A stretch of 64,000 bases of DNA from Fuerstiella sp. GTDB lineage: Bacteria > Planctomycetota > Planctomycetia > Planctomycetales > Planctomycetaceae. The stretch spans positions 1 through 64,000 of the forward strand of contig JAQWLN010000211.1 of the NCBI GenBank assembly GCA_029247265.1. Reading direction: 5' to 3'. The notes under the pieces are model-generated. The model was not told the DNA's origin. It worked only from the letters and a program-made list of their open reading frames with translations, and searched no databases. Within the stretch, counting starts at the first letter, position 1. Each line of letters begins with the position of its first letter. Both the position numbers and the translations under genes were made by a program. Shown in pieces: positions 8,901 to 51,875 of the stretch.

Positions 8901-11900
8901 CTACGCTGCCGGCTCAATCTTGTCATTGGCGGACTTGCCGATCACGGGGATCATTGCACCAAAGATGATCAGCCCCTGCAGGCCAATAAACACCAGCAAC
9001 GCCAGCAGACGTCCTTCCGTAAAGCCATACGTGTGTAACCCGGCTTTCAGTTCGTTCACTCCGAACCACGACCATGCGGTCACGATGTTGCCGAACATCG
9101 CCAGGACTGCTGTTCCATAATCACGAACAAGCTTGTCCCAGCGAGCGTGCAGAATCAGAGCATTCCACATAACGATCAGCATGGCCCCGTTTTCCTTGGG
9201 GTCCCAGCCCCAGAATCGGCCCCAGGAATCGTCGGCCCAAAGTCCGCCTAGCACAGTGCCGACGAGGCTGAAGAAGACAGCGAAACACAGAACGCCGTAG
9301 ATCATCTTGCCCAGCTGCGGCAGATCGTTTCGGCTTTTCTCTGCCCCGAAGTTGGAGATAACACAATAAGCGATGCCCATCGCTCCGGCCAGAAACGTGG
9401 CCGCATATCCAAGCGTGATGCAGACTACGTGAGTTGCCAGCCAGAACGTCGTGTCCAGGACCGCCTGCATGACGCCAAGCGTGTCACCTTCGTCGACTGC
9501 GAGGTAGTGGGCAATCATTAGTGTCGCCATGCCGACCGATGATCCCAGAATCGTGCCGATGCCGTTTTTCAGCAGACGTTCAATCAGGAAGGACGCACCC
9601 ACAACGGCCCAGCCGATGAAGATCGCGGACGAATACAGATTGGTGACCGGCGGTCGCCCCGATATATACATCCGCATCAGCAGCGCGACCGTGTGCGTGA
9701 TGAACGCCAGAGCCATCAACCAGAACGCGGTGCGACGAAGAGTCTTCGGCCACACGATCCAGCTGAAGAAGGACATCAACAGCACAGGCAGATACAGATA
9801 AATGGACTTTATGAAAGGTCCAAAGAAATTAAAGAACGCTTCCAGACTGACGACCGATGCATCCACGTGCGGCAAAGGCGTTACGGCCAGGTACTCCTGA
9901 TACCCGGAGACGCTGGTATTGAACGCATCGACGTCACTAACGCTCCATGCGGCAAGTATGTCGATCATCGCTTTTGTACTGGTCTGCAGCGTAGATGTGG
10001 AATCGGCCCGGTAAAGCATTCCGCCCGTCCGAGTCTCAAGATCATCCAGAGCCACTTTGACCAACTCCAGGTTCATCTGTGCGGCGAGAGCGGCCTCATC
10101 GTTCGTTCCGGCGTTTTGCAGCCTGCTCCGCATTCCTGCCAGGCGTTTGTCGTTTTCTTTTTCGTTCAACGCCTCAAAGATCTGAAAGACCTCAGACGAA
10201 ATTCGTTCCGCGGCAATCTCGCCAAAGTCTGAGTCAGACATACCGTCCAGCATTTCGTCAGCGGTCATTCCCGACTCGGCCTTGCCGATGATCTCCAGCA
10301 CGCGACGCAGGAACGGATCTGCGAGAGTCAGCGCCGCTTCCGCGGCACGGGTCTTAACAGCATCCGGTTTTAATTCTTCGCCGGCTGCTTTGGCAGCCTC
10401 TTCGACAGCCGACTGCAGAATCGTCACGCTTCCATCCACGGCATTCGCAACAAGTTCACGAGGAAGTTTCGTCTGAATGTAATCCAGCACCTGCTCATCG
10501 CTGGTCAACCCATGTTTCGCCAGATCCTGAGCCACGTTTCGCATCGCACTGGCAGCAATCAGCGTTTCCCATGATCGCTGTTCGTTTTCCGAACCAGTAG
10601 GAACGGCCATGATGGCCGCGCTGTTGCCAAGCCGATCGAGGACCCACCAGGCCTTGACGATCGAATCCAGCAGGCCTTCCGACTCACGAACCAGAAAGAT
10701 ATTCTGCAGCGAATCGACTCGACTGACAGTACGAAACAGCGAGACCACTCGCCGCTGCAGCTGTGACATCCGGTGTTCCTGCTTGCCCATTTCCAGCCGC
10801 AGACCTTCTCGATGAATCTTCTGCAGGTCAGCAAGGTTCTCCTGAACCTCATGCAATGAATAAGTCAGACCGGCACGCTTCTCGAGCCCCAGCAGCGACA
10901 ACACCTGATCATCGTCGATCTTGATCACGCGATGCCGTTTGGCATGTTCCGGACGAGCAACAACGTCCAGAAACCAGCGTACGGCGGGCATCCGCAGAGT
11001 CATAACGCCCCGCATACGTTCTTCGACGGCATCACGTCCAGACGATGTCAGCTTGACAATCTGTTCGATCCAGTCGTCATACTGTCCAGAGAAGTCTTCC
11101 AGAGATTCCGTCTTCACAGACGGCCAGTACTTCTGAACGCGTTCGACGAGTTCGTCATGCTTCTTCGGAACATCCAGTTCAGAAGCACTCAATTCGCCCT
11201 TGAACGTGGACTTGTGCGATGTCATCAGCAGTTCAGTGCGTGCGAACGAATCGACCGGTTGAGCCCGCCCTTTCCACGCCACTGGAAGTTGTGAGAAAGC
11301 AAAAAGATTCATCGCATCCGCATCAGCCTTTGGCGGACGAGCTTTGCTCATCAGCCACCCGCCACTCAACAGCAAAACAATCAACGGAACGGCGACGGGC
11401 CATATCGATTTCGGAACCTTGTCGGCAACCGAAACGTCGGAGACTATGGTCGCAGCAGCCGGTTTCCGGATTCCCGCCGGCATTGATGCGGCAAATGGAT
11501 CGTCACCATTTTGAACGTCGGCGACTGTTGCCCCGGTTCTTCCCATGCGAGAAAGATATCGCCCTAAAGTCTGACCAAACTTCGCAAACATACCGACCGC
11601 CACGATCATGCAGGCGATGTACGGCAGCATCCACCCCGTATTGCGAACAACAGACAACGTCGTCATCTCGGTGCCGTCTGGAGTCTCGTTGTAGCCGGAC
11701 TGGTAGAACGTTTCGCCTCGATACCGCAGTGGATTATTCATCCACAAAGTGAATTCTTCCGAAGCCCCGGTTTCACGATCTCGAATGACGATCTCTGACC
11801 GATAGTCGCGGGGGGTTGCAGAACCGACGTAGTTAGTGCGGCTCACGTCCAGCAGTTCCACTTCGTAGTCCCGATAATTGCGTTGAAACCGCAGGTACAA

Positions 11901-13259
11901 CTGGTAGTCACTTCCGTCCACAGTCGCCTGTTCCGCAATCGGAACGGTTCTCATCTCACTGACGTCCTGCGCCAGCAGGAGCGTTTCCAGTTCTTTGCCG
12001 GTGTCACGATCAAGCAGTGTAAGCTGCAACGAACTCATGTCATGACTGTCGTCCATGCCGGTGACCGGATCGACTTCGATCGACGTGGCGAACGTGCCTA
12101 ATCCGGAAGTTCCGCTGGAATCTTCACCGGGCAAGACAGACCGTAGACGACTGTTTCTGTGAAACCGATCCACTCGCAACACAAACGGCAGCGATGGAGT
12201 GTCGACGATCTGATCCTCCGAATCTCCGGCCTGCCCAGCTGCCGCAGCGGCAATCAATGCGGCTTCAGGAACGGCGACAACCTTTTCACTGTCGTCATCC
12301 TGACGATGCACAATCGCCAGTTCCCGTTCCCGCATATCCCTCAGAAAGGACGACTTCTGCCCCTCCACCAGGGCCAGCATATTTTCCTTCGCATAGAAAC
12401 CCACCTGCAGCTCACTAAACATCAGCAACGCTACCCCGGTGTGCAGCAGTACGATGCCACCTCGTTTCTCGAACAACAGATTGCAGCCAATCAACACTAC
12501 AAGGGCACAGGCACCGCCCTTCAATAATTGCCACAGGATCCGCATGGAAGACAGATTCAGCCTGGCTGCTTCGCCACCCACCAGAAAATAAACAAGCACT
12601 GCGGCCAGAGTGATTCCCACACTGCCCATAAGAATTCGCTCGGGACGGGACGTGCCTGACTTAGTGAGCGCGACACCCAGGGGCACAACCGATGCGACGC
12701 CCAGAACACCCAGCATCAGATACCAGATCTGCATTGCCGACAGGACGGAATTACCAGACTCGACACCCGTTTGCCCGTTGCCAGTCACAACAACTGCCGC
12801 CGTCAATGCCGCCCCCACAGCAATGATGCCGATTCCCGCAGCCATGCGTCCACCACGAACACGAACCGTGAACCGCAGCAAATGCGCCGTGGTCAGATTG
12901 GCCAGCATGATCCACCCGATGGTCCAGCCACCTGGAAACGGTATCCTTCGAAACGCTCCCAAAGAATCCCAGTTAAAGTCGATCCAACCAGGAAACATCG
13001 ACGGCGGAAACAGGTCGGCCACATCGATATAGGCAACGTAAGTACGGAAGTATTCACCGACCACCAGCCAGACGTCCTTGCGAGCCTGGGCCAGACTTCC
13101 CACAAAGACGATAAACATGCCCAGCAAAAGCAGAACGCAGGTCAGCTTTAGTGAACCCAGCGCATCAATGCACTGCCAGACGATTGCTGTGAAACGATCT
13201 TCTGACAGCTTTGCGTCGTCGCCACCCGCCAGATCACCAGGAAGTACTGTTGTCGACAT
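8901..13259 (-). CDS. ResB-CcsA fusion, system II cytochrome c biogenesis protein with large inserted region
   Basis: A 1452-residue membrane protein that should export haem and ligate it to CxxCH apocytochromes on the outer face. The N-terminal third is ResB/CcsB-like: membrane helices near residues 33-57 and 110-270, the GGIVLLHTGVALLMFSELQVG segment and a periplasmic beta-rich region with YRGETFYQSGYNE. The last roughly 330 residues are CcsA-like: histidine in FITHTVALLMRMY, PPVTNLYSS, THVVCITLGYAA, the WWD-type haem motif WGRFWGWDPKENGA and NALILHARW. Between them lie about 500 soluble, helix-rich residues (roughly 630-1130) that match neither half. The upstream lipoprotein gene is 4 bases away, so they are co-transcribed. 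Several c-type cytochromes in this window are plausible substrates. Confidence 0.88.
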   Translation of the reverse strand: MSTTVLPGDLAGGDDAKLSEDRFTAIVWQCIDALGSLKLTCVLLLLGMFIVFVGSLAQARKDVWLVVGEYFRTYVAYIDVADLFPPSMFPGWIDFNWDSLGAFRRIPFPGGWTIGWIMLANLTTAHLLRFTVRVRGGRMAAGIGIIAVGAALTAAVVVTGNGQTGVESGNSVLSAMQIWYLMLGVLGVASVVPLGVALTKSGTSRPERILMGSVGITLAAVLVYFLVGGEAARLNLSSMRILWQLLKGGACALVVLIGCNLLFEKRGGIVLLHTGVALLMFSELQVGFYAKENMLALVEGQKSSFLRDMRERELAIVHRQDDDSEKVVAVPEAALIAAAAAGQAGDSEDQIVDTPSLPFVLRVDRFHRNSRLRSVLPGEDSSGTSGLGTFATSIEVDPVTGMDDSHDMSSLQLTLLDRDTGKELETLLLAQDVSEMRTVPIAEQATVDGSDYQLYLRFQRNYRDYEVELLDVSRTNYVGSATPRDYRSEIVIRDRETGASEEFTLWMNNPLRYRGETFYQSGYNETPDGTEMTTLSVVRNTGWMLPYIACMIVAVGMFAKFGQTLGRYLSRMGRTGATVADVQNGDDPFAASMPAGIRKPAAATIVSDVSVADKVPKSIWPVAVPLIVLLLSGGWLMSKARPPKADADAMNLFAFSQLPVAWKGRAQPVDSFARTELLMTSHKSTFKGELSASELDVPKKHDELVERVQKYWPSVKTESLEDFSGQYDDWIEQIVKLTSSGRDAVEERMRGVMTLRMPAVRWFLDVVARPEHAKRHRVIKIDDDQVLSLLGLEKRAGLTYSLHEVQENLADLQKIHREGLRLEMGKQEHRMSQLQRRVVSLFRTVSRVDSLQNIFLVRESEGLLDSIVKAWWVLDRLGNSAAIMAVPTGSENEQRSWETLIAASAMRNVAQDLAKHGLTSDEQVLDYIQTKLPRELVANAVDGSVTILQSAVEEAAKAAGEELKPDAVKTRAAEAALTLADPFLRRVLEIIGKAESGMTADEMLDGMSDSDFGEIAAERISSEVFQIFEALNEKENDKRLAGMRSRLQNAGTNDEAALAAQMNLELVKVALDDLETRTGGMLYRADSTSTLQTSTKAMIDILAAWSVSDVDAFNTSVSGYQEYLAVTPLPHVDASVVSLEAFFNFFGPFIKSIYLYLPVLLMSFFSWIVWPKTLRRTAFWLMALAFITHTVALLMRMYISGRPPVTNLYSSAIFIGWAVVGASFLIERLLKNGIGTILGSSVGMATLMIAHYLAVDEGDTLGVMQAVLDTTFWLATHVVCITLGYAATFLAGAMGIAYCVISNFGAEKSRNDLPQLGKMIYGVLCFAVFFSLVGTVLGGLWADDSWGRFWGWDPKENGAMLIVMWNALILHARWDKLVRDYGTAVLAMFGNIVTAWSWFGVNELKAGLHTYGFTEGRLLALLVFIGLQGLIIFGAMIPVIGKSANDKIEPAA

Positions 13260-13263
13260 CGTC

Positions 13264-13845
13264 CTATTCTCCTGCGGAGATCCTTACAGACTTGCAGAAC
13301 GCACGAAACGAATCTCGTTGTGCATCCGCCAGTTTATTTCTGCCGCGAAACTTAAAAATCCACAGCTTGTCCTTAACAGGCAATAACATGCCCAGAATCG
13401 TTTCCTCTTCGCCCCTGAGGTCAACGATTGTTCCTGTACCGCCGTCCAGTTTTATGGTTTCCGCACCATTCATTGGATCCGAATTCGGATCGGCGGTGAT
13501 CCCAATCTGTCCTCTCCACCGAGTTATCTGCGGAACCAGTCCGGCTGCACCGGGCAGGTCGCTGAGCGTTATTCGGCCTGCATCTCCATCCAAACGAACC
13601 TGCCAAGCCATCTTGCTGAACTGATCATTATCACCAGCAACCCACGAATCCGGCACGCCCCATTGAAAAGGAATGGCAGGGAACTGGTCTCGAATCATCT
13701 CACTGGTGAACACGCGATTGTGTTCCGATTCGACGGTGTATTCGCGAATCTCAGGCGCTGGCGCGCAGCCGCTGAGGACCAGGGCCACAAGACCCGGGAC
13801 AGACAGAAGATGGCCAGGACAACATTCAACGAAATTCTTCAACAC
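13264..13845 (-). CDS. Putative lipoprotein of unknown function
   Basis: A 193-residue protein with a short hydrophobic N-terminus ending in the lipobox LVLSGC (Cys27), so it is probably lipid-anchored. I do not recognise the mature part; it contains QFPAIPFQWGVPDSWVAG and a segment near the end, KLWIFKFRGRNKLADAQRDS, and looks globular and soluble. It ends 4 bases before the ResB/CcsA start, which suggests an accessory role in cytochrome c maturation or membrane redox. That is inferred from position only. The start at 13845 gives a long n-region with two adjacent cysteines; a downstream start is possible. Confidence 0.7.
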   Translation of the reverse strand: MLKNFVECCPGHLLSVPGLVALVLSGCAPAPEIREYTVESEHNRVFTSEMIRDQFPAIPFQWGVPDSWVAGDNDQFSKMAWQVRLDGDAGRITLSDLPGAAGLVPQITRWRGQIGITADPNSDPMNGAETIKLDGGTGTIVDLRGEEETILGMLLPVKDKLWIFKFRGRNKLADAQRDSFRAFCKSVRISAGE

Positions 13846-14188
13846 GGTGGAACAGCCGTCAGAGATGAATGGGGAATGAAAGGGAGGCAGGTGGGAAACG
13901 TTTGTTTGCCGCCGGAGCGACGGACAGACACTCTACACGTTTTTGCCAGGCGGAAGTTCGCCGATTATAGACCTGCGCTCGTCGAAAACCATGCGTTCAT
14001 GAATGCAAGCCATGGATATCCTATTTCATGGGGTTTACAAAAGACTCCAGCACCGGCCCTGCCCTGACGCGCGAGCGGCAACTAATCCCGCTACACTGCT
14101 GATTACTATGATTACACGCACTTTGACGGCAAATGCTGCGTCTGTTCACCTGCCCTGCAGACCCTCTCCTGAATCTGAGACTTCCGCC
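13846..14188. other. 343-base intergenic region between divergent genes
   Basis: No convincing gene or RNA was seen. It must hold the promoter of the lipoprotein-ResB/CcsA operon (minus strand) and that of the esterase (plus strand). In-frame ATGs upstream of 14189 extend the esterase ORF to 14003 but encode no recognisable sequence. A palindrome-rich stretch around 14010-14040 contains two CATGG/CCATG-type motifs of unknown meaning. Confidence 0.5.
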
Positions 14189-16402
14189 ATGAGTACCCGC
14201 CTGAATGACTCTCGTCTGCTTTGGTTCGCCACTCTGGCGTCGATCTTCCTCTGCTGCACGCCGACCTTCGCAGCCGATGCCGACAATCATCGAGTCTTTG
14301 ATTCCGGCCAGCAGCCGGATGATTCCCGCCTCCAGGCTCCCAAAGATCTGAACGATTATTTTCCGTTCGAGGTCCCAAAATCGAAGGCAGCCTGGGAAAA
14401 GCGGCAGGCCGAACTGAAGCAACGAGTCCTGATCGCCACCGGCCTCTGGCCAATGCCGGAAAAGACGCCGCTGAATCCCGTGATTCACGGCAAAGTCATT
14501 CGAGACGGCTTCACGGTCGAAAAAGTCTACTTCGAAAGCCTGCCGGGGCACTTTGTCAGCGGCCTGCTGTTTCGCCCCGAAGGCGAAGCGGACGGCAAAC
14601 GCCCCGCCGTTCTTTGTCCGCACGGTCATGGTGGTCGACAACAGGATTACGGTGCCGACAAAATGGACGACCTGATCGCAACCGGCGCAGAGATCCATCG
14701 TGAGTCCGGTCGGTTTCCGAAGCTGGCACGGTGTGCACAACTGGCACGGATGGGCTGCGTCACGTTCATCTTTGACATGATGGGCTACGTCGACAGCAAT
14801 CAGGTATCGTACCAACTGGCCCATCGTTATGCCGATATACGACCGGACTTTGAATCGAACGACAGCTGGGGCTTCTACAGCCCTCAGGCTGAATCTCGTT
14901 TGCAGAGCATCATGGGACTGCAGACCTGGAATGCAGTGCGTTGCCTGGACTTTCTGGCCAGCCTGCCGGACGTTGATTCCGCTCGCATGGCTGTTACGGG
15001 AGGCAGCGGCGGCGGAACTCAGACGATTCTTCTGGGAGCCGTCGACGACCGCCCGATTGCCGGATTTCCGAATGGCATGGTGTCCACCAGCATGCAAGGT
15101 GGCTGCACGTGCGAAAACTGCAGCCTGCTGAGAATCGGAACGGGTAACGTGGAACTGGCCGCACTGTTTGCACCTCGCCCACAGGCGATGACCTCGGCCA
15201 ACGACTGGACAAAGGAAATGATGACCAAAGGCTACCCACAACTGCAGCAGCTGTATGCAATGCTGGGTGTGCCGGACGACGTGTACTGTGAACCGATGCT
15301 GCACTTTCCGCACAACTACAACGCTGTCACGCGCAGCATCATGTATTCGTGGATGAACAAGCACCTGAACCTGGGACACAAGACGCCAATCAAAGAGCTC
15401 GACTGGAAACCGCTCAGCAAAGACGAGTACACCGTCTGGAATGACCAGCATCCGGCTCCGCCTGCAGGCGACGACTACGAACGAAAACTGCTGCAACAAC
15501 TGAACGAACGCGACCGTGCCGCCTTGTCGAACCACGCTCCGCAGAACAGCAGCGACGCGCAGAACTATTTTTCCACAGTTCGCGCAGCATGGGAGACACT
15601 CATCGGACGAAGTCTGCCGAAAGCTGAAGACGTCCAACGCGCCAAGAGCTGGAAAGAGACCCGGGCAGGCTACCTTGAATTCGGCGACACGCTGACTCTG
15701 ACAACGCACAACGAACAGTTGCCCATCATTTCCGTCTATCCCAAGTCGGTGGCCTGGAACCAGAAGGTTATCCTGTGGGTTGACGGCAACGGCAAATCCG
15801 GAATGTTTCCCAACGGACAGGCTCATGCAGACCTGCTGCGTCTGATCGACGCCGGATATTCCGTCGTGGGAGTGGACCTGTTTGGTCAGGGAGAATTCAC
15901 CACCAACGGAGAAGCTCTGACCGAAAACCCAACGGTCAAGAATCCGCGACAGTTTGCAGGGTTCACGTACACCTACAATGACACGCTGTTTGCTCGTCGA
16001 GTCCACGACATTCTGACTCTGACCGCGTGGATCAACGGCGACGAACACAGTCCAAAGGCACTGCACGCCGTCGGCGTCAACGGCGGGGGACCATTGCTGG
16101 CCGCCGCCCGAGCCATCGCCGGATCGCAATTCAGTGCCGCAGCAATCGACACCGCCGGCTTCCGATTTGCGAATCTGAACAGTTGGAAACACGCTAATTT
16201 TCTCCCGGGGGCCGTCAAATATGGTGACATTTCAACACTACTGTCACTGTCCGCTCCAAACAAACTGTGGGTCGGAGGCGAAGAATCAATGCCAACCATC
16301 GTGACGACAGCCTACGGCACGGCCAACGCGAATGATGCCATCGCTACATCCGATCGACTAGATGCCACCGCAGCTGCCATTGACTGGATCCTTCAACAAT
16401 AG
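14189..16402 (+). CDS. Secreted two-lobed alpha/beta-hydrolase (acetyl xylan esterase-like)
   Basis: A 737-residue protein if translation starts at the ATG at 14189, chosen because it begins a signal peptide (MSTRLNDSRLLWFATLASIFLCC ... FAA/DAD). The first half is an alpha/beta-hydrolase with VLCPHGHGG (oxyanion region) and the nucleophile elbow TGGSGGGTQ near residue 271. The second half repeats the fold (SVVGVDLFGQGEF, VGVNGGGPLLAAARA), but the elbow serine is Asn there, so only the first lobe should be catalytic. The overall type resembles planctomycete acetyl-xylan-esterase-like hydrolases acting on acetylated polysaccharides. Substrate unknown. It is a single gene with no operon partner. 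Confidence 0.82.
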   Translation: MSTRLNDSRLLWFATLASIFLCCTPTFAADADNHRVFDSGQQPDDSRLQAPKDLNDYFPFEVPKSKAAWEKRQAELKQRVLIATGLWPMPEKTPLNPVIHGKVIRDGFTVEKVYFESLPGHFVSGLLFRPEGEADGKRPAVLCPHGHGGRQQDYGADKMDDLIATGAEIHRESGRFPKLARCAQLARMGCVTFIFDMMGYVDSNQVSYQLAHRYADIRPDFESNDSWGFYSPQAESRLQSIMGLQTWNAVRCLDFLASLPDVDSARMAVTGGSGGGTQTILLGAVDDRPIAGFPNGMVSTSMQGGCTCENCSLLRIGTGNVELAALFAPRPQAMTSANDWTKEMMTKGYPQLQQLYAMLGVPDDVYCEPMLHFPHNYNAVTRSIMYSWMNKHLNLGHKTPIKELDWKPLSKDEYTVWNDQHPAPPAGDDYERKLLQQLNERDRAALSNHAPQNSSDAQNYFSTVRAAWETLIGRSLPKAEDVQRAKSWKETRAGYLEFGDTLTLTTHNEQLPIISVYPKSVAWNQKVILWVDGNGKSGMFPNGQAHADLLRLIDAGYSVVGVDLFGQGEFTTNGEALTENPTVKNPRQFAGFTYTYNDTLFARRVHDILTLTAWINGDEHSPKALHAVGVNGGGPLLAAARAIAGSQFSAAAIDTAGFRFANLNSWKHANFLPGAVKYGDISTLLSLSAPNKLWVGGEESMPTIVTTAYGTANANDAIATSDRLDATAAAIDWILQQ

Positions 16403-16500
16403 CCGGGATCCCCCGGCGGGCCGTGGCGTAGAACGTGGGGCGTGAGAGCGATCAAGCGCCGAGGTGGTTGACTGGTGAATAGGATGTTCTGCGCCGCTGT

Positions 16501-17096
16501 TCAGTGGCGAACTTCTCTCTGGGCTGACGTATCGTGGCACCACATGCATGTTTCAAACCCCGGACTATTCATGTGCTCACGTCGAAAGTCAGTCTCGGCA
16601 GCCGTGATCCCATCGTGACAACGGAGACACTGTTGCTCGTTCGCTGCGGCATATTTCTTTCCACTGATGGCACATAACATGGCCACCCGCGGCCCCCGCA
16701 TCTGATCGCCCTGCACAACATCATTGTGCCAGTCCGCCTTAACCACCGTCACATTTGTTTCTTCACGACGAGCGTGGTCTTCCGCCACATGCGAAAAACT
16801 GGCATCAACCACTGGTTCCTTGCCGCCCTCCGCAACATCGCCGCCCTCTACAACATCGCTGCTCACTGCAGACGCGGTCCCCATGGTGTGACCAACAAAG
16901 ACGCCAATCACCAGACACGCCGCAGCAACAACAGACACCCCCCCCACGACCCCACTCGACGTGATGCCGGTCCATATGCCGGTCCACATGCCGGTTCAGA
17001 GGCACGAAGGCACGACTCAACTTTTCCATCCAGTTCTGATGACGGTTCCGCCAACGACATCTGCCGCAATAGATTTTCAACTTGCGACTCTTTCAT
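16501..17096 (-). pseudogene. Frameshifted anti-sigma-like membrane protein with two CxxCH motifs
   Basis: The gene starts at ATG 17096, overlapping the sigma-factor stop (ATGA), with MKESQVENLLRQMSLAEPSSELDGKVES, an N-terminus of the kind seen in partners of planctomycete ECF factors. That frame stops at 16908. The other frame, open from 16989 to 16501, supplies a membrane helix (VSVVAAACLVIGVFVGH) and an outer domain ending in CLRCH and CMWCH. The two frames meet around a run of eight C on the plus strand (16938-16945). One extra base there would give a continuous protein of about 198 residues. Either a real frameshift, a slippage-prone tract or an assembly error is possible. The CxxCH pair suggests haem or metal binding outside the membrane. 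The independent reading is a free-standing 162-residue protein from 16989. Confidence 0.6.
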
Positions 17097-17461
17097 AATT
17101 GACCTCGTAGTCTTTCTTCCAGTTTGATCAGTGATCGACGGTAGCGTGTCGCCACGGTCTTGGCCGGCTGATTGAGAATTTCTCGCACGGCGTCAAACGT
17201 GAGCCCGGCGAATATCTTCAGAACAACCACTTCGCGATCCGATTCGTCAAGATCATTGACGGCTGTCCGCAGAATCTGGTCCCGTTCCGCTGTTAACACG
17301 TCATCGGCCGGAGACTCGGCGTCCAGACGACAAAGCCGTTCAAACGCAGCGTGAATGGCATCTTCGGCCAACTGACGACAGCCAGTGATCGACAGCGCCA
17401 GAGAAAACAATCCCTGCCGTTGCGAACAGTACGTTTCTTCCAGTTGATCTCGCACAGACAT
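17093..17461 (-). CDS. Short ECF-type sigma factor apparently lacking regions 2.3-2.4
   Basis: A 122-residue sigma-70 family protein. Region 2.1-2.2 is recognisable (GLFSLALSITGCRQLAEDAIHAAFERLCRL, residues 17-46). Region 4 is complete (LDESDREVVVLKIFAGLTFDAVREILNQPAKTVATRYRRSLIKLEERL, residues 70-118). Between them there are only about 23 residues (DAESPADDVLTAERDQILRTAV), where ECF factors normally carry the YLFRVARN-like region 2.3-2.4 that melts and reads the -10 element. The product is thus about 50 residues shorter than a usual ECF factor. It overlaps its putative membrane partner by 4 bases. Either it is decaying or it is an unusual minimal factor. Confidence 0.75.
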   Translation of the reverse strand: MSVRDQLEETYCSQRQGLFSLALSITGCRQLAEDAIHAAFERLCRLDAESPADDVLTAERDQILRTAVNDLDESDREVVVLKIFAGLTFDAVREILNQPAKTVATRYRRSLIKLEERLRGQL

Positions 17462-17571
17462 TGTCCACTGTCGCTACTCGCCTTACGTCCCTGCAAGACT
17501 ACACGCACGAGCCATGATTGGTTCTTCAGAAAACCTGGCAGTTTTCCTGTACGGACCACAATTGATCGGAT

Positions 17572-25216: not shown

Positions 25217-26126
25217 CTACTGAGGCTGCGTGGTTTTCTGTGGTTGTCGACTCGACGTTTCAAAACGTCCTCGCTGAGCCACGATGATAGCGTGAAATTC
25301 AGTTTTTTTCAGCAGTCCGGAACCTGTGTACCCATTAGACCTCAGACGGCAGGCAACGATCGGCTGTACCCAGACGGCCTTCCTCTGACTGGGTACCTCA
25401 GGTTGTTTTTGAACTGCGGAATGCAGCCGAACGGCAATCTGGCGAAACTTCGCTGGTGGCAATCGCTCAACTCTGATTTCGGCAACATGTCTTACCTGAC
25501 CTCTCACATCGGCCGCGAACAGAAAGCTGATCGGCGTTTTATTGGCGTCAATCACGACACCATAGATAAAACATTCCAGTTCGATAACGGGTTCGTCAAC
25601 GGCGGCCCGGTCTGCGAGAGCCTCTTCACCAAGTGCCTCAATCTGGTCCTCAACGCCATCGAGTTCGGAGAGTGCTTTGCCCATTTTTCCTGAGCCGCCG
25701 GCCCCACGTCCGTTTTCATCATCCGACTCTTCTTCCTGAAGATCGTTAAGTGCTTCATCAAGCGAAACGTCGTCTTCACCTGCCTCCTTAGCGGCACTTG
25801 TAATGGCTCCGACAGCGGCCGAAACCTTCGGTGTTTTCGTTTTCTTAGGGTCGTCAACACGAAACGGCGCCGAGTAATCGATGCCACCGATAATTGTCAT
25901 GGCGGTCATCACTGCAACTCCGCCCCAAACGAGGCCCCATACGCGAGCATACATCCGGTAAATCATCGGCCCACGACGCTCCATCAACGATCGGGTAGTA
26001 GCCACAAGCCGGACACCATGACGATTCGCCCCATTCCTGCGACGTATGGCAACGAATACACGTTTCCGCGCGTTCAGCTTCCGGAGTTTCTAATGATTCT
26101 TCCGGCTCAATTGCGCTAGTTGACAT
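25217..26126 (-). pseudogene. Zinc-ribbon/transmembrane protein interrupted by an apparent frameshift
   Basis: From ATG 26126 the first frame encodes a treble-clef-like pair, CIRC-H and CPAC-GYYP (residues 23-45), then loses all resemblance and stops at 25854. A second frame, open from a GTG at 26005 to 25217, supplies the rest: a membrane helix (VWGLVWGGVAVMTAMTIIGG), an acidic linker (VSLDEALNDLQEEESDDENG) and a globular domain (IYGVVIDANKTPISFLFAADVRG ... AVWVQPIVACRL). Joining them just after CGYYP needs one base removed or two added near 25990. The joined product would be about 300 residues and resembles zinc-ribbon membrane proteins of planctomycetes. There is no long homopolymer, so slippage is less obvious than at 16.9 kb. 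Function unknown. Confidence 0.6.
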
Positions 26127-26628
26127 TGTGCTGTTTCTTTGTCTTTCGTTGCGTTGTTACAGCGTTTTACGCTGACTTATGGCCGCGGCGAACGGCTATC
26201 CGCCTATGAGAGTGGCTCTGCCACGAGCCCCACGACGACATCTTTTCGACAACTGCACTAGTCGCGTCGACTTCATCCGGCCGAGTGAGCTCGGCATGGC
26301 GTAACACCTGCATCGTGATCCACCGACTACAAAACGTGGTATTATGGAAACATAGGTTCCGCGAATTCGTCTGCGGATTTTTCTCAACATTTCCCACGAT
26401 GAGGGGACCGCAGAATCCGGGCAATCCACACAATCGATCAGCATCGTCGTACGTTGACCCTACGGCCGCCGTTTTGATCACACCTGCCCGTTCATACCCG
26501 CCATTAGCCTGGCGCTGTATGTTGTGTGAATTGCATGTCCCATCGCTCAGGAGGCGATCGGCATGAAGAAGAGGGAGATGGCAAAATCACTTCCGCGAGC
26601 ACCACGGTAGCGGAATTTCAGCGGCGTT
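26127..26628. other. 502-base region without a confident gene
   Basis: Overlapping short ORFs on both strands show no family resemblance or biased codon use. The only item of note is a 15-codon ORF with a strong Shine-Dalgarno at 26563-26610, listed separately. The promoter of the zinc-ribbon gene (minus strand) should lie at the left end. Confidence 0.5.
26563..26610 (+). CDS. Possible 15-residue small protein
   Basis: ATG at 26563 is preceded by AGGAGG (26549-26554) at a spacing of 8. It encodes MKKREMAKSLPRAPR, then TAG. The Shine-Dalgarno match is perfect and the product is strongly basic. A 15-codon ORF can still arise by chance, and I recognise no family. It lies 18 bases from the mazG stop on the opposite strand. 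Confidence 0.25.
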   Translation: MKKREMAKSLPRAPR

Positions 26629-45725: not shown

Positions 45726-47315
45726 TCAATCGCGCGTGAAAAAGTAGTCGGGATACGTCAGCGTCAGTCGCGACTTACTAGCGCCACCGTCCTCAAGACA
45801 TGCGTCAATCTCTGCCTTTAGGCTCAGCAGGTTGTCGGAGACAAGCAGCGGATCTTTTGTCCGCCTGCGCCATGCCGCCAGCTGTTCCTTTAAGTTCTGC
45901 AGCACATCCGAGTAATCAGCATTGGCCGCCAGATTGCGAAACTCATACGGGTCACTGTGCAGGTCGTATAGTTCGAATGCCGGCGGTGTCTGCATGCGAT
46001 GATAGGACCTTCGAATATGGTCCGGTGCGGCTTCAATCGTGTCCGGCAGATCCGCAAAGAAACGATTCAGAGTAAAGCCGTAGCCGGGATTATTCTGACC
46101 TGGCATCAGATTCTGAATCAGCTTGTACCGCCCGTCGCGAACCGTCCGTTGTGGATAGAAGTTGTGCGCTGAGTGAAGGTGATATTCGGTGAACAGAAAC
46201 TGGCGCCAATCGGGCCCCTTCCCGTCCGGCGACTCTGTCTGCAGCAGTGGCAGCAGCGAACGCCCTGGCAGGTCGACGACGGGATCTGCTGCTGCGACTG
46301 TCAGCAGTGTTGGCATCAGGTCAAGCGTCGACACAAGCTCCTGACAAACAGTATTTGATGCCGTGTTCCCCGGCCATCGGATAATCAACGGTATGCGAAT
46401 ACCACCTTCGTACGACGTGCGTTTCCCTCGCAACAGGTCTGCACCATGATCGCCCATATAGATGACCAGTGTATTGTCGGCTTTCCCTGTCCGCTGCAAA
46501 GCGGACAGCAGGTCTCCGATCAATGAATCCAACCGACTCATGCAGTTGTAATAGTCGGCCGTGTCCTGCCGCAATTGTGGTGTATCAAGTCCAAAATATT
46601 CCAGCGGCTTCACGTCGGCGCCGGTCAGTGGTTTCGCGGGCAGACCGCGTACCTGGGTGGTGAACGGACGATGGGCGTCAGCATAGTTCACGCTCAGGAA
46701 AAAGGATTCGTCACCGTCGGTCATAAACTCTTCTGCATGCTTCGAATAGTCACCCAGTTTCTTGCGGCTGAAGTTCGCTTTGGGAATATCGTGCACGTCA
46801 AACGGAAACGCAGACGCCGGATTAACATGAAGTTTCCCGATGATGCCGGTCCGGTACCCAGCCTGTTTCAAACTGCTGATCAGGTTGGGCGTATCCCGGC
46901 GGTACATACGAAACTTCCACGTCGCCAGACCGATCTGCCCGTTCTGATGTGGATAAAGTCCGGTCAGCAAGGCTGCTCGAGACTGGCTGCATCCCGCCTG
47001 CGGAACATATGCGTTGTGAAACCGCACGCCATCTGCCGCGAGTTTGTCCAATACGGGTGTCTGTACAAAAGGATCGCCGTAACAGCCGAGCTCCGGACCG
47101 TTGTCTTCTGAGACGATCAACAGGATGTTCGGACGCGCTGCAGCGAAGGCAGATGGTGTTCCGCATAGTCCACAACACAAAACAACCACAGCGACAGCGA
47201 CAGCGACAGCGATTCGCCCCACGCCACGAAGGCCGCGTATCCGCGTTGTCGACGATTCGCGCGGCCCGTTGGGCACGCGGTTAAACGATGTAATTTTGCG
47301 TACAGCAATGGTCAC
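45726..47315 (-). CDS. Secreted sulfatase with atypical CSQSR site
   Basis: Starts at GTG 47315, overlapping the upstream sulfatase stop (GTGA), with AGGAG 7 bases upstream; 529 residues. The signal peptide contains a run of alternating Ala-Val encoded by (GCGACA)n on the plus strand (47191-47212). The sulfatase core is clear: NILLIVSEDNGPELGCYGD, GIIGKLHVNP, YMGDHGADLLRGKRTSYEGGIRIPLIIRWPG. The maturation site reads AGCSQSRAALLTG, with Gln where the consensus C-x-P/A-x-R has Pro or Ala. Whether the cysteine is converted to formylglycine is therefore open. It is the last gene of the four-sulfatase run. Confidence 0.9.
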   Translation of the reverse strand: MTIAVRKITSFNRVPNGPRESSTTRIRGLRGVGRIAVAVAVAVVVLCCGLCGTPSAFAAARPNILLIVSEDNGPELGCYGDPFVQTPVLDKLAADGVRFHNAYVPQAGCSQSRAALLTGLYPHQNGQIGLATWKFRMYRRDTPNLISSLKQAGYRTGIIGKLHVNPASAFPFDVHDIPKANFSRKKLGDYSKHAEEFMTDGDESFFLSVNYADAHRPFTTQVRGLPAKPLTGADVKPLEYFGLDTPQLRQDTADYYNCMSRLDSLIGDLLSALQRTGKADNTLVIYMGDHGADLLRGKRTSYEGGIRIPLIIRWPGNTASNTVCQELVSTLDLMPTLLTVAAADPVVDLPGRSLLPLLQTESPDGKGPDWRQFLFTEYHLHSAHNFYPQRTVRDGRYKLIQNLMPGQNNPGYGFTLNRFFADLPDTIEAAPDHIRRSYHRMQTPPAFELYDLHSDPYEFRNLAANADYSDVLQNLKEQLAAWRRRTKDPLLVSDNLLSLKAEIDACLEDGGASKSRLTLTYPDYFFTRD

Positions 47316-48742
47316 GGATTCTCTCCTGTATACTCAGGATTTGGCAGCATCGGATCGGCGCCCACCCGGTCACGCCAAGCCTTAAGCTTGCCGTATAATT
47401 CGGCGGCCTTTCCGGGATTCTGTTCGGCCAGGTCAGTGGTTTCGCCCAAGTCGCTGGCAAGGTTATAAAGCGATCGTTTCCCTGTCTCAAAGGCTTCGAC
47501 CAACTTCCACTCGCCAGCACGAATGACACCCGGAGGAAAACTCTGCGGATGCTGGTTGTAGTGCGGGTAGTGCCAGTAAAGAGCATCCCGATCAAGTTCG
47601 CCCTGCCCCGTCAGGACCGGCACCAGATTTTCACCGTCCACGTGTTGAAACGGCCGCTCGTCCTGCCCCGTGGCGGCAAGAATTGTGGGATAAAAATCGG
47701 TGCTGATAACCGGCTCGTGTGAGACGGAACCTGGCTGCGTCTGACTTGGCCACTTGATAATGACCGGCACACGGAGACCGCCTTCGTAGTTCGATCCCTT
47801 ATTCGCACGCAGCGGAGAATTATCAGTCGCCTTCGCAAAACCGCCGTTGTCGCTGGTGAAAATCACCAGGGTCCGCTGGTCGATCTTCAGTTCCCGCAGG
47901 GTTTGCAGGACTCGGCCGACGCTGTCATCCACACTCTCGACCATTGCCGCATAGTCCGGTTTTCCCTGACGAGCCTTCTTCGCCGTTTTTGCATAGCGAG
48001 TAACTTTATCAGGCTTACCCTGTAGCGGAGAATGAACAGCGTAGTGCGACAGCATCAGGAAGAACGGCTGATCGGCCCTTTCGCGAATGAACAATTCGGC
48101 TTCTTCGGCCAGTCGATCGACAAGATAGTCACCTGTCTTGCCAGCCACCGGTGGATCCTTGTGCAGCATCTGGCCCGTTGTCGGTATCTTCCAGCTGCCC
48201 TTGAAAGGATAAAAGTAACCGCCCGGCGCACCGTAGTCGCGACCTCCGACATTCACGTCAAAGCCCTGATGTCGCGGGTAGTAATACGTTTCGGTTCCCA
48301 GATGCCATTTACCCATGAACGCCGTGCGATAACCGGCCTCGCGCATCGCCTCGGCAATGGTGACATCTTCAAGCGGCAGATTCGAAAGATAACGAGCCTC
48401 ACGCATTCTGTTCTTTGTCGCGTTCCAGCGGCCCGACGGCAGCCATTGAGTCAGCAGCAGTCGAGCCGGATACTTGCCGGTCATGATCGCCGCGCGAGTT
48501 GGCGAACAGACGTTACACGCCGCGTAGCCATCCGTAAACCGCATGCCTTCGTCGGCAAGCCGGTCGATGTTGGGAGTCTGATAATATGTGCTGCCGTAGC
48601 ATCCAACATCCTTCCAGCCAAGGTCGTCGACAAGGATCAGCACGACGTTGGTCTTTGCGGCATCGACGACGCTGGCATCAACAGCACGCGCACTCCAGCT
48701 GAGCAGCAGCAGGGCGATCAGTACGAAGTTGGTTCGTTTCAT
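47312..48742 (-). CDS. Secreted sulfatase (CSPTR type)
   Basis: ATG 48742 overlaps the upstream stop (ATGA) and begins a signal peptide (MKRTNFVLIALLLLSWSARAVDA); 476 residues. Core motifs are NVVLILVDDLGWKDVGCYGS, the maturation site C-S-P-T-R in NVCSPTRAAIMTGKYPARL, FMGKWHLGTE and IFTSDNGGFAKATDNSPLRANKGSNYEGGLRVPVIIKWP. The arylsulfatase A-like pattern is standard and the enzyme should be active after formylglycine formation. The substrate is not readable from the sequence. Translational coupling on both sides places it in a four-sulfatase unit. Confidence 0.93.
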   Translation of the reverse strand: MKRTNFVLIALLLLSWSARAVDASVVDAAKTNVVLILVDDLGWKDVGCYGSTYYQTPNIDRLADEGMRFTDGYAACNVCSPTRAAIMTGKYPARLLLTQWLPSGRWNATKNRMREARYLSNLPLEDVTIAEAMREAGYRTAFMGKWHLGTETYYYPRHQGFDVNVGGRDYGAPGGYFYPFKGSWKIPTTGQMLHKDPPVAGKTGDYLVDRLAEEAELFIRERADQPFFLMLSHYAVHSPLQGKPDKVTRYAKTAKKARQGKPDYAAMVESVDDSVGRVLQTLRELKIDQRTLVIFTSDNGGFAKATDNSPLRANKGSNYEGGLRVPVIIKWPSQTQPGSVSHEPVISTDFYPTILAATGQDERPFQHVDGENLVPVLTGQGELDRDALYWHYPHYNQHPQSFPPGVIRAGEWKLVEAFETGKRSLYNLASDLGETTDLAEQNPGKAAELYGKLKAWRDRVGADPMLPNPEYTGENP

Positions 48743-50337
48743 TTCTCTTTCCCGTGCGTTGTCGTACCAGTCTCTCTGTGCGTCCACGTGAAAGCATCAG
48801 GATCAAAAAGGAACGCTCGTTTGGTCGGAGCAGGCTCGGCCCATTGCTTTGTAATCCAACCCGCCAGTTCAGACTTGATAGGCGCCGCGTCTTTTTCCGA
48901 CGCCAGATTATTCCACTCGTGTGAATCGACGCGGTGATCGTACAGTTCTTCGCCTCCATCGCGGTAACGGATATAACGATACCGTTCACTGCGAACTGCC
49001 ACGTTCCCCTGTTTGTATTCGATGACTGCCGGACGATTCCACTCGGCCTTCGGATCCCGCAGCAAGGGCACGAGGCTTACGCCGTCAAGTTGAGTGTTTT
49101 CATCTCGCAGGTTCTGAAGCTTCACCACGCTGTCCTGTACAGCCGAAGACGTGCCTGCTGTGCACAGCTCAATCAATGTCGGATACAGATCCAGCAGACT
49201 GACGGGACGATTGGACCTGCCGGAACCGAATCCCGGAGCGCTGATGACCAGCGGCACTCGCGTCGCTTCTTCCCACAACGTCGTCTTGTGCCAGTGCTCT
49301 TTTTCGCCAAGATGCCAGCCGTGGTCAGACCAAAGTGCAATCACAGTGTTGGCCGCATGCGGACTGCGATCAAGAGCGTCAAGGACTCGGCCAAGTTGCT
49401 CGTCGGCATAGCTGATGCTGGCGAGGTACGCACGCACAGCCTGCTTCCAGGCATTTGCCTTTCTGATAACGTTCAGGTCGCTCCGACGTGCTTTCGCAAA
49501 TTTCAGACCACCGTCCGGGATGTCGCCCAGATCGTCGTCCGGAACATCCGGCAATACGACGTCATCCAGCGGGTACAGATCGAAGAATTTCTGCGGCACG
49601 TACCATGGCAGGTGTGGCCGGAACAATCCGCAGGCCAGAAAAAACGGGCCGGAATCTGCCTGCTGTCGGTGGCCCTTCAGAAACCGGACAGCATAGTCCG
49701 CACTCAGTGCATCGTCGTATTGCTCGGCAGCAATCGGCAGCGAACCCCAGTCATTTTCGTGGCCCAGTCCCGGCACGCCACTGAATGGAAACCCATCCGG
49801 ATTGGGGCCAAACTCTGACCACGGGTAGTTCGTCCGCACGCTGCGAAACCACGGGTCGTTGCGAAAGGTCAGCCGAAAAAAATCATCCCATTGATTCGGT
49901 GGATTATTACCAGCCGTGTGATGAAAAATCTTTCCCGCACCAACAACACGGTAACCGTGGTTGCGAAAATGCTGAGGAATAGTGACGACGTCGGGCAGGT
50001 TGGGCAGCCACCAGTGACCATTGTCGTACAAGCCCGTCGTCGATGGCCGCAGGCCTGTCATGATGGCCGCGCGAGACGGGGCACACTTGGGCGATGGACA
50101 ATGAGCATTGGTAAACAATACGCCTCGGCCGGCAAGCCGGTCGATGTTTGGCGTGTGGACCGTTCCCTCGTACCCGCGCAGACAATTCACCCAGTCCTTC
50201 ATGTCGTCCACAGCCAGGAACAGGACATTGGTACGTTGCGCCTCCGCATCAGCCGTACTCATGACTGGCGCAACGAACAGGCACGCGAGTGCAGCGATTA
50301 TTCGGACTGGTCGTGCGATGAGGGATTCGCAGCTCAT
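48739..50337 (-). CDS. Secreted sulfatase, iduronate-2-sulfatase-like (CAPSR)
   Basis: A 532-residue sulfatase starting at ATG 50337, which overlaps the previous stop. Signal peptide MSCESLIARPVRIIAALACLFVAPVMSTADA. NVLFLAVDDMKDWVNCLRGYEG and TPNIDRLAGRGVLFTNAHCPSPKCAPSRAAIMTGLRPSTTGLYDN resemble the iduronate-2-sulfatase branch, with maturation site C-A-P-S-R. LWSDHGWHLGEKEHWHKTTLWEEATRVPLVISAPG is the usual metal-binding and substrate region. An attack on sulfated uronic-acid-containing glycans is plausible but inferred. Confidence 0.92.
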   Translation of the reverse strand: MSCESLIARPVRIIAALACLFVAPVMSTADAEAQRTNVLFLAVDDMKDWVNCLRGYEGTVHTPNIDRLAGRGVLFTNAHCPSPKCAPSRAAIMTGLRPSTTGLYDNGHWWLPNLPDVVTIPQHFRNHGYRVVGAGKIFHHTAGNNPPNQWDDFFRLTFRNDPWFRSVRTNYPWSEFGPNPDGFPFSGVPGLGHENDWGSLPIAAEQYDDALSADYAVRFLKGHRQQADSGPFFLACGLFRPHLPWYVPQKFFDLYPLDDVVLPDVPDDDLGDIPDGGLKFAKARRSDLNVIRKANAWKQAVRAYLASISYADEQLGRVLDALDRSPHAANTVIALWSDHGWHLGEKEHWHKTTLWEEATRVPLVISAPGFGSGRSNRPVSLLDLYPTLIELCTAGTSSAVQDSVVKLQNLRDENTQLDGVSLVPLLRDPKAEWNRPAVIEYKQGNVAVRSERYRYIRYRDGGEELYDHRVDSHEWNNLASEKDAAPIKSELAGWITKQWAEPAPTKRAFLFDPDAFTWTHRETGTTTHGKEK

Positions 50338-51812
50338 TTGTCGCGCTCCATTCCACTTGGTAGCGCCACCTTCCAGCCGTCCGAAAGAACCTGAGATAGC
50401 CGCTGCACAGTTTTCTGTTGTTCCGCCTGACCTGCCACATTCTTCATTTCCTCAGAATCCTGTTGGTGGTCATACAATTCGACGGACACAACATTCTGAG
50501 ATTTCCAATCACGCCATTCCACGTAGCGGTGACCATCTGTGCGCACCGCGTATCCCATAATATCACCATGACTGCGGTGACGCTTTCCCTGGAAAGCTCG
50601 TGGATACTGACTGAACACAGCTCGTTTCCACGGCCGCTGCGGTTCTGCCAACAAGGACTTCAGACTGATGCCTTCCACGTCCATCGGGAGCTTCAGACCG
50701 CATACACCCGACAACGTTGGATAGACATCGACAAGCTCAACAAGAGCATCAGACTTGGCGCCGGGATTCACCTGTCCGGGAACGGATACGATCAGAGGAA
50801 CGCGGGTGGACAGTTCATAATTATTGGCCTTCGTCCACAAGCCCTGCTCACCCAGATGAAAACCATGATCGCCCCACAGGACGATCACTGTATTATCCTG
50901 GAGTTTCAGTCTGGAAAGCTCATTCAGCAGGCGACCAACCATCGCGTCTGCGAAGCTGACGCAGGCATAATAGCCGTGCCGCAGTTCGCGCACCCTGGCC
51001 AGCGAAATCTGTCCGTCGCCGGAAATGTCGGTGTAGCCTTCCAGCTCCTGCCAGCTGCGCACGGCCAGTTCCGGTGCTGCGTGCGGATGACGGTCACTTG
51101 CGGGCAGCGGAATTTTCGTGCGGTCGTAGAGATCCCAGTATTTTTTTGGAGCACAGAACGGCAGATGAGGTTTACGGAGCCCGACCGCCAGAAAAAAGGG
51201 ATCTTCTCCTGCCTGCAGTTCCGCAAGTGCGGCAACAGCGGCATCGCAGACGATGCCGTCGATATACGTATTGTCCGGAACATCTGCAGCTTCGGATGCT
51301 GACCTCTTGAGCCCCTTGCCCTGCAGATTCTTCGGCAAGGCGTAACGAACCTTTGGGTCACGTACATAATCGTACTGCGGCTCGACCGACCACGAAGGCG
51401 GATCCTTCGACGGCTTTCCGCTGCCGTGAAAAACCTTGCCGATACTTTGTGTGTGATAACCGTTATTTCGGAAGTGCTGCGGCAGAGTTACGGCGTCGGG
51501 AACAGCCTTACGAAAATGTGTCGCCAAATCCCAGACGCGAATTGTGTCGGGCCGTTTTCCCGTCAGCAGTGACAGCCGTGACGGGCTGCAGACCGCCTGT
51601 TGGCAATAAGCTCGGTTGAACAGCGTGCCGCGCTGTGCCAGACGGTCGATGTTGGGCGTAATCGCGATGCTGTCGTCGTAGCAACCGAGCGCCGGACGCA
51701 GATCATCGATCACAATGAACAGAACGTTGGGGCGTCCGCGCGGTGACTGAGCGCTGGCAGTCTGCCAGAAAACCACGATTGAAACGGCGAACGTACCGAG
51801 GAAGTATTTCAT
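50334..51812 (-). CDS. Secreted sulfatase, iduronate-2-sulfatase-like (CSPSR)
   Basis: A 492-residue product from ATG 51812, chosen because it starts a compact signal peptide (MKYFLGTFAVSIVVFWQTASAQS). In-frame starts at 51860 (ATG) and 51866 (TTG) remain possible and would leave only about 10-16 bases from the sialidase stop. Motifs: NVLFIVIDDLRPALGCYDDS, C-S-P-S-R in QAVCSPSRLSLLTGKRPDTI, QSIGKVFHG and LWGDHGFHLGEQGLWTKANNYELSTRVPLIVSVPG. It is most similar in layout to the neighbouring iduronate-type sulfatase, suggesting duplication. First of the four coupled sulfatases. Confidence 0.9.
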   Translation of the reverse strand: MKYFLGTFAVSIVVFWQTASAQSPRGRPNVLFIVIDDLRPALGCYDDSIAITPNIDRLAQRGTLFNRAYCQQAVCSPSRLSLLTGKRPDTIRVWDLATHFRKAVPDAVTLPQHFRNNGYHTQSIGKVFHGSGKPSKDPPSWSVEPQYDYVRDPKVRYALPKNLQGKGLKRSASEAADVPDNTYIDGIVCDAAVAALAELQAGEDPFFLAVGLRKPHLPFCAPKKYWDLYDRTKIPLPASDRHPHAAPELAVRSWQELEGYTDISGDGQISLARVRELRHGYYACVSFADAMVGRLLNELSRLKLQDNTVIVLWGDHGFHLGEQGLWTKANNYELSTRVPLIVSVPGQVNPGAKSDALVELVDVYPTLSGVCGLKLPMDVEGISLKSLLAEPQRPWKRAVFSQYPRAFQGKRHRSHGDIMGYAVRTDGHRYVEWRDWKSQNVVSVELYDHQQDSEEMKNVAGQAEQQKTVQRLSQVLSDGWKVALPSGMERDK

Positions 51813-51875
51813 GGAACGACTCACGCTCAAATTGACTGCGTCTATGACCGGACTGCTCATGGCCAATCGATGACG

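Follow-up and report, generated by a model that had tools for sequence, protein, structure and literature searches.

Results

The gene pair and its surroundings

The window analysed here is a stretch of 64,000 nt of Fuerstiella sp. DNA on contig C245 of genome G000, an assembly of 6.53 Mb in 280 contigs with an estimated completeness of 90.5%. It carries a shortened ECF sigma factor gene preceded by a promoter-like element, a partner gene divided between two reading frames, and, beyond a convergent gene, a predicted lipoprotein gene followed by the gene of a cytochrome c synthetase (Table 1). The sigma protein and the second partner frame resemble genes of the genome G002 at 2.9e-34 and 8.2e-57, respectively, so the feature is more than chance. 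The synthetase gene, the promoter-like element, and the cross-genus family described below are additions to what was noted earlier.

Table 1. Features of the locus (window coordinates)
Feature	Position	Strand	Basis and remarks
ECF sigma gene, shortened, 122 aa	17093..17461	-	Regions 2.1-2.2 and 4; deletion junction near 17323/17324
Partner, first piece: cytoplasmic anti-sigma-like N-terminus (predicted)	16941..17096	-	Genus profile positions 1-48, 1.5e-11; start overlaps sigma stop
Partner, second piece: membrane helix, stalk, CLRCH/CMWCH domain	16501..16937	-	Genus profile positions 47-187, 2.2e-42
C8 (G8 on the coding strand), place of the partner frame change	16938..16945	-	Sequence, run-length comparison
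Membrane helix SVVAAACLVIGVFVGHTMG	16879..16935	-	Sequence; one such helix in 10/10 intact partners
First CxxCH (CLRCH)	16615..16629	-	Among aligned partners, CxxCH here is confined to Fuerstiella
H-x8-CxxCH (HMNSPGFETCMWCH), motif also found in genera g56 and g62	16534..16575	-	In 9/10 intact partners
Predicted autoregulatory promoter CTGAAGAA-N16-CGTGTA	17500..17529	-	Starts 68 nt upstream of the annotated sigma start
Fused ResB-CcsA cytochrome c synthetase, 1452 aa, unbroken	8901..13259	-	PF05140 and PF01578 above cut-off; 56% identity to G153 protein
Predicted lipoprotein gene, before ResB-CcsA	13264..13845	-	48% identity to G153 gene
Convergent AXE1/Abhydrolase_7-like gene between the pair and the lipoprotein gene	14003..16402	+	Same place in G002, G004, G005

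Pfam recognises region 4 of the window sigma protein above the cut-off (residues 62-114, 6.2e-06) and region 2 partially and below it (residues 17-45, 0.006). Relative to the G002 gene there is an in-frame gap of 138 nt, and in an alignment with the four full-length sigma factors of the genus (rows of 158-167 aa) the absent columns are regions 2.3-2.4 and the linker. The predicted lack of regions 2.3-2.4 is thus confirmed by Pfam, by the gap, and by the congeneric alignment. Being without them, the window protein falls short of the domain composition of ECF factors (region 2 including 2.1-2.4, together with region 4), whereas the intact G005 relative has both domains (PF04542 at 2.3e-10, PF08281 at 8.1e-08). 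TIGR02984 (Sig-70_plancto1), like the window protein a planctomycete ECF type, matches residues 45-117 at 1.8e-11 with 44 bits against a cut-off of 183.75, which places the short sigma factor outside that subfamily; this comparison concerns the short window protein alone.

The N-terminal open frame of the partner extends over 16908-17096 (62 aa, start at 17096), and the frame that holds the membrane helix and the CLRCH and CMWCH motifs extends over 16501-16989 (162 aa). A profile of five partners from the genus hits the two pieces separately, in agreement with the predicted split at the C8 tract, which is the only G/C run of at least 8 in the window. The tail comes slightly under the Pfam cut-off of Paired_CXXCH_1 at 5e-4 (PF09699, 20.1 versus 20.6 bits) and also under that of the cytochrome c7-like family (PF14522, 19.6 versus 24.8 bits).

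Comparison within the genus

Eight genomes of the genus were compared, with G002 as the nearest relative of the window. The original prediction had proposed that relatives be searched for a full-length sigma factor and a continuous partner; both are present, one after the other, in G003, G004, G005, and G007. G002 has a continuous partner of 188 aa, and its sigma gene is interrupted by a stop codon inside the very stretch that is deleted in the window. G001 has a distant sigma match only (3.3e-9) and no partner match; homology and profile searches of G006 gave no sigma match at 1e-8 and no partner match. In the sigma tree the window groups with G002 as its sister (support 98/94), and two neighbouring lineages therefore carry different lesions in one stretch of the sigma gene. 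A short sigma factor shared by relatives had been named as evidence against damage. It was not seen, since all four unbroken congeneric sigma factors are full length and that of G002 has a stop, and a conserved short form was rejected because it is absent from every congeneric relative. Judged by these alignments, the short sigma gene and the split partner are damage in this lineage, not a conserved design; the claim that both genes are damaged here stands, given the intact congeneric pairs and the differing lesion in G002.

Between the window and G002 the sigma gene has a dN/dS of 0.12 (120 codons). For 33 other syntenic genes the median is 0.083 and the highest value 0.20, which means that the loss is recent or that some constraint persists. 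The partner has a dN/dS of 0.36-0.49 in the same comparison. This was rejected as a sign of decay because whole intact partners reach 0.38-0.83 in three close pairs of genus g56.

Matches in the window were found for 46 of 52 ORFs of G002, and six were without a match. Nine of the 46 are matched in more than one frame: four are adjacent paralogues that hit each other, three, of low identity, are perhaps not genes at all, and the remaining two are the partner and a gene at about 25217-26153. With so few frame changes among the matched ORFs, the assembly is not generally rich in them. The region 25217-26153 is a second damaged gene by comparison with G002, where the copy has 433 codons; about 300 nt are lost and the frame is changed, and a T4SS_pilin match lies below the cut-off. 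Positions 45726-51866 hold four adjacent, cross-matching genes of similar size on one strand, of which the two scanned are sulfatases.

A further observation concerns positions 16350-16650. The 98-bp gap between the stop codons of the partner and the convergent hydrolase gene, together with the 3' end of the partner, has 91-97% identity to G002 in 100-base windows, compared with a mean of 81% in 150-base windows. The last 44 partner codons have a pS of 0.075 versus 0.33-0.63 in the 33 other genes. The corresponding gap in G003 and G005 is just 2 and 7 bp. The low divergence would be explained by a recent exchange between the lineages or by constraint acting on more than the protein. That the block downstream of the pair is a repeat was rejected, as it occurs once in G000, once in G002, and not in G005.

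A sigma/anti-sigma family in several genera

Sigma factors of this family from four genera (14 rows including the window) form one clade with support 98/96 against 21 other ECF rows, retained out of 24 extracted, and this placement supports common descent of the window protein with ECF sigma factors. The family may already have an ECF group number.

The profile of five Fuerstiella partners already detected relatives of them in further genera. A wider profile of ten partners, run on 397 genomes of the class, gave matches in 28. Thirteen of the partners detected in this way have a CxxCH tail, six from Fuerstiella (the window included), five from g56, and two from g62. Outside this count are a fourteenth tail-bearing match, a 44-codon remnant in G188, and one additional CxxCH tail in the G431 partner; matches in the remaining genomes are weaker (8e-6 or worse). 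All ten aligned intact partners have one clear membrane helix, which lies between residues 49 and 85, is preceded by 48-66 residues, and has the greater positive charge on its N-terminal side; the N-terminal parts scanned have no Pfam match. An H-x8-CxxCH motif stands near the C-terminus in all except the G058 partner, which is without CxxCH. The last 28 residues are nearly fixed in the three close g56 pairs (pN 0.000-0.015). The five Fuerstiella partners share the His of both CxxCH motifs and, besides these motifs, one invariant His and one further Cys; in the tail motif, the CxxCH His is kept almost without exception across the ten aligned partners. To go by sequence, then, the intact pair consists of an ECF sigma factor and a membrane anti-sigma-like protein with one helix and a C-terminal CxxCH tail. 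The aligned partners bear out the original description of such a protein with its CxxCH domain beyond the helix.

No Pfam cytochrome cut-off that was tried is reached by the tail, in the window or in the relatives scanned. The genus partner profile found no relatives in the PDB up to E 1, and the wide profile, up to E 5, matched no more than two unrelated chains and, in the tail part, a reaction-centre cytochrome (0.013). The partners of G058 and G341 are without the tail motif, and in both the next gene encodes a CxxCH protein: a PDZ protein with two CxxCH motifs in G058 (L061 2058-2783) and a 278-codon ORF in G341 (L088 540-1376). Possibly, the same sensor is split over two proteins there.

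The synthetase neighbourhood

The window ResB-CcsA protein has the ResB and CcsA/Cytochrom_C_asm domains of a System II cytochrome c synthetase and keeps the WWD motif (WGRFWGWDPKE at residue 1346). The gene order in g56 and g62 is sigma factor, anti-sigma factor, lipoprotein, and long protein; three of the long proteins were scanned (1451-1471 aa) and have ResB and Cytochrom_C_asm domains, and are thus fused cytochrome c synthetases. Overall, in three genera the pair adjoins the lipoprotein and ResB-CcsA genes or, in Fuerstiella, lies one gene away, and 11 of the 13 tail-bearing partners (with the window, without the G188 remnant) are found by these genes. The other two belong to G003 and G007, whose intact pair is on another contig than the synthetase locus. 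G004 and G005 have an intact pair despite the hydrolase gene in between.

The converse survey covered 30 lipoprotein loci besides the window, namely the 29 best-scoring ones from 151 matching genomes, and that of G007. In all 30, the lipoprotein gene is followed by ResB-CcsA, as judged from the N-terminus of the encoded protein. The pair is upstream in 11 (G002 counted with its split sigma gene), remnants of it are found in two (G188 and a fragment in G180; a G114 match at E 0.04 was excluded), and 17 have no pair in the available upstream sequence, the contig ending near the gene in G434 and G006. The synthetase is hence not dependent on the pair. Beside the kept synthetase locus of G188, the remnant anti-sigma gene (L150 5493-5624) preserves the CxxCH tail and is accompanied by no sigma match, apparently an independent loss.

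A promoter-like element upstream of the sigma gene

An element YTGAAKRA-N16/17-CGTGTD, with the spacer of 17 in G002, is located upstream of the sigma gene in 13/13 loci examined from four genera at a score of at least 12/14 (in G345, which scores 12, the start codon used is unsure). Such scores were reached in 0.26 loci on average, and in two at most, by 200 mononucleotide shuffles, a contrast that is inflated, the consensus having been derived from these very sequences. ECF promoters usually have the form GGAAC/CGTC, from which TGAAKRA/CGTGTD differs; a canonical GAAC...CGT/GTC element before the pair was rejected, as it occurs in 2/15 sigma upstream regions. The sigma factor is predicted from this conservation to direct RNA polymerase to its own promoter.

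A scan of the window assembly gave a single exact match of the pattern, before the sigma gene, and likewise a single match of the reversed control pattern. The 14 genomes with the pair have 29 matches versus 13 for the control, eight of these 29 being sigma promoters; in the 10 further genomes scanned, among them G180 with its anti-sigma fragment, the numbers are 10 versus 7. Thirteen of the 31 matches not belonging to sigma genes were inspected and ten lie inside ORFs of more than 120 codons, so that no further target is claimed. A wider regulon was accordingly rejected, most of the inspected matches being intragenic. G005 has a second exact match, inside no long ORF (L173, G005:C1:6223451-6223480). 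Finally, the 250 nt upstream of the lipoprotein gene contain no element at 12/14 or more in any of eight genomes, six of them Fuerstiella (best scores 10-11), and a direct effect of the sigma factor on the synthetase would therefore need read-through from the sigma operon.

Discussion

In ECF systems a membrane anti-sigma factor keeps the sigma factor bound until a signal from outside removes it. We explain the locus as a broken copy of an autoregulated operon of this kind whose anti-sigma factor has a haem-tail sensor, an account to which, taken whole, we give somewhat better than an even chance. Anti-sigma action of the partner is quite probable. Its short N-terminus would hold the sigma factor at the membrane, and after a single crossing the H-x8-CxxCH tail would be exposed outside. 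Haem would be attached to this tail by the ResB-CcsA encoded nearby, which the motif and the neighbourhood make slightly more probable than the opposite. CcsBA, as described in PMC10663686, recognises CXXCH substrates, moves haem out, and joins it to CxxCH. The signal could tentatively be cytochrome c maturation itself: when haem attachment lags, the unfilled tail would destabilise the anti-sigma factor and free the sigma factor, although this polarity of the response is distinctly doubtful. The freed sigma factor would transcribe its own operon from YTGAAKRA-N16-CGTGTD, and in g56 and g62 the transcript could run on into the lipoprotein and ResB-CcsA genes, closing a feedback loop. The convergent hydrolase gene of Fuerstiella would block such read-through. 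With the pair and the synthetase separated in this way the loop cannot close, the pair may become dispensable, and the convergent gene may explain the decay of a pair that would be in the course of being lost. In the window, the sigma factor would be unable to read the -10 element, and the anti-sigma factor would be cut off ahead of its helix.

Not all of the damage need be real. The frame change of the partner falls exactly at the longest G/C run of the window, in an assembly of 280 contigs, and no other syntenic ORF tested has a plain frame change apart from the three low-identity ORFs; a read or assembly error at the homopolymer, with the sigma deletion alone being real, would account for this. 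However, the 138-nt in-frame deletion in the sigma gene is no error of this type, and the intact G004 partner contains a run of 8 elsewhere, which implies that such runs can be read correctly, and we regard the error as unlikely, if worth serious attention. The same tract had been proposed to switch the anti-sigma factor on and off. A long mononucleotide run inside a gene, with a run of 7 at the same place in G002, would suit phase variation, but the longest runs there are 2-4 in the other four intact partners, and a sigma factor without regions 2.3-2.4, itself broken, would profit nothing from the switch; we consider phase variation extremely improbable. It is also conceivable that the short sigma factor is alive, with its regions 2.1-2.2 and 4 under selection for a role as decoy or co-regulator, in which it would bind RNA polymerase and the anti-sigma factor but not recognise the -10 element. 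Its dN/dS against G002 is low in the N-terminal part (0.061) and the C-terminal part (0.157), and its promoter element is kept. Moreover, in the 2.3-2.4 core of G002, upstream of the stop, 4/12 conserved columns are changed versus 3/54 in the flanks (Fisher p 0.017, uncorrected, one of five such tests), which could mean that the core was unneeded first and is the basis of this explanation. Yet recent loss accounts for the low dN/dS equally well, the two parts are separated by a stop codon in G002, the partner is broken in the window, and two region-4 positions fixed in intact genus members are altered in the window protein (G to R and A to S). A retained short form is very improbable, and loss of the pair is the reading that we keep.

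Instead of carrying haem, the CxxCH and the conserved His of the tail might coordinate zinc or iron or form a thiol redox pair, and the sigma/anti-sigma pair would then sense metal or periplasmic redox state. The tails are short and reach no Pfam cytochrome cut-off, and the single invariant His and Cys beyond the CxxCH motifs of the Fuerstiella partners would suit such a site. On the other hand, 11/13 loci have the gene of the enzyme that joins haem to CxxCH close by, and the His of the CxxCH motifs, which is invariant or nearly so, speaks for haem. Metal or redox sensing thus appears the less plausible use of the tail, with perhaps a minor share of the probability, and haem loading remains the use assumed in our account.

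Known systems share parts of this architecture. The intact pair resembles the short class II ECF pairs such as CnrH-CnrY in combining a sigma2-sigma4 factor with a one-helix anti-sigma-like protein that has 48-66 residues before the helix. CnrY-type proteins have two short helices binding sigma4 and sigma2 and then one membrane helix; predicted length and the single helix agree with this. The family described here differs in its periplasmic CxxCH tail and gave no CnrY sequence match in the PDB searches. For the class I anti-sigma domain (ASDI), PMC7406223 gives a limit of at least 50 residues, which the family partners straddle, and this comparison is one of lengths alone; their N-terminal part, where scanned, has no Pfam match. 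The c-type haem sensors of other signalling classes (sCache_heme/Tll0287 and the Geobacter chemoreceptors GSU0582 and GSU0935) likewise have a covalent-haem CxxCH in an extracytoplasmic sensor, a motif that is read from sequence in our family. Their folds are of the Cache/PAS kind and belong to histidine kinases, chemoreceptors, and GGDEF/EAL proteins, and 'sigma factor' and 'anti-sigma' occur 0 times in the text of PMC12889525. The Has and Hxu haem uptake systems (HasI-HasS, HxuI-HxuR) also link an ECF sigma factor and a membrane anti-sigma factor to haem. Their sigma factors are released via a haem-binding outer-membrane receptor, according to PMC12670364, in which CXXCH and anti-sigma appear separately and for different systems; in contrast, no such receptor is present among the window neighbours scanned. 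None of the full-text literature matches listed for CXXCH, cytochrome c maturation, c-type haem sensors, and planctomycetes describes an anti-sigma factor with a c-haem motif.

To our knowledge, it is largely unknown how bacteria adjust their cytochrome c synthetase to the haem available and to the need for cytochromes. The widest form of our proposal, which we advance as speculative and rather unlikely in its entirety, is that a class of Planctomycetaceae anti-sigma factors are substrates of the cytochrome c synthetase. Haem on the H-x8-CxxCH tail, or on the next-encoded protein in G058 and G341, would report maturation, and the freed sigma factor would raise the synthetase; the window would then be a loop dismantled after the convergent gene cut the pair off. 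The idea is testable, since it specifies a motif, a promoter, and a partner enzyme. The locus itself is one of several, beside the G188 tail remnant and the G180 fragment, in which the regulator is broken or gone and the synthetase gene remains. If the tail is loaded with haem, it would directly report what the synthetase itself produces, and the intact relatives, often placed near a synthetase and carrying a haem-attachment motif on the outside, suggest a way for cells to monitor their cytochrome manufacture.
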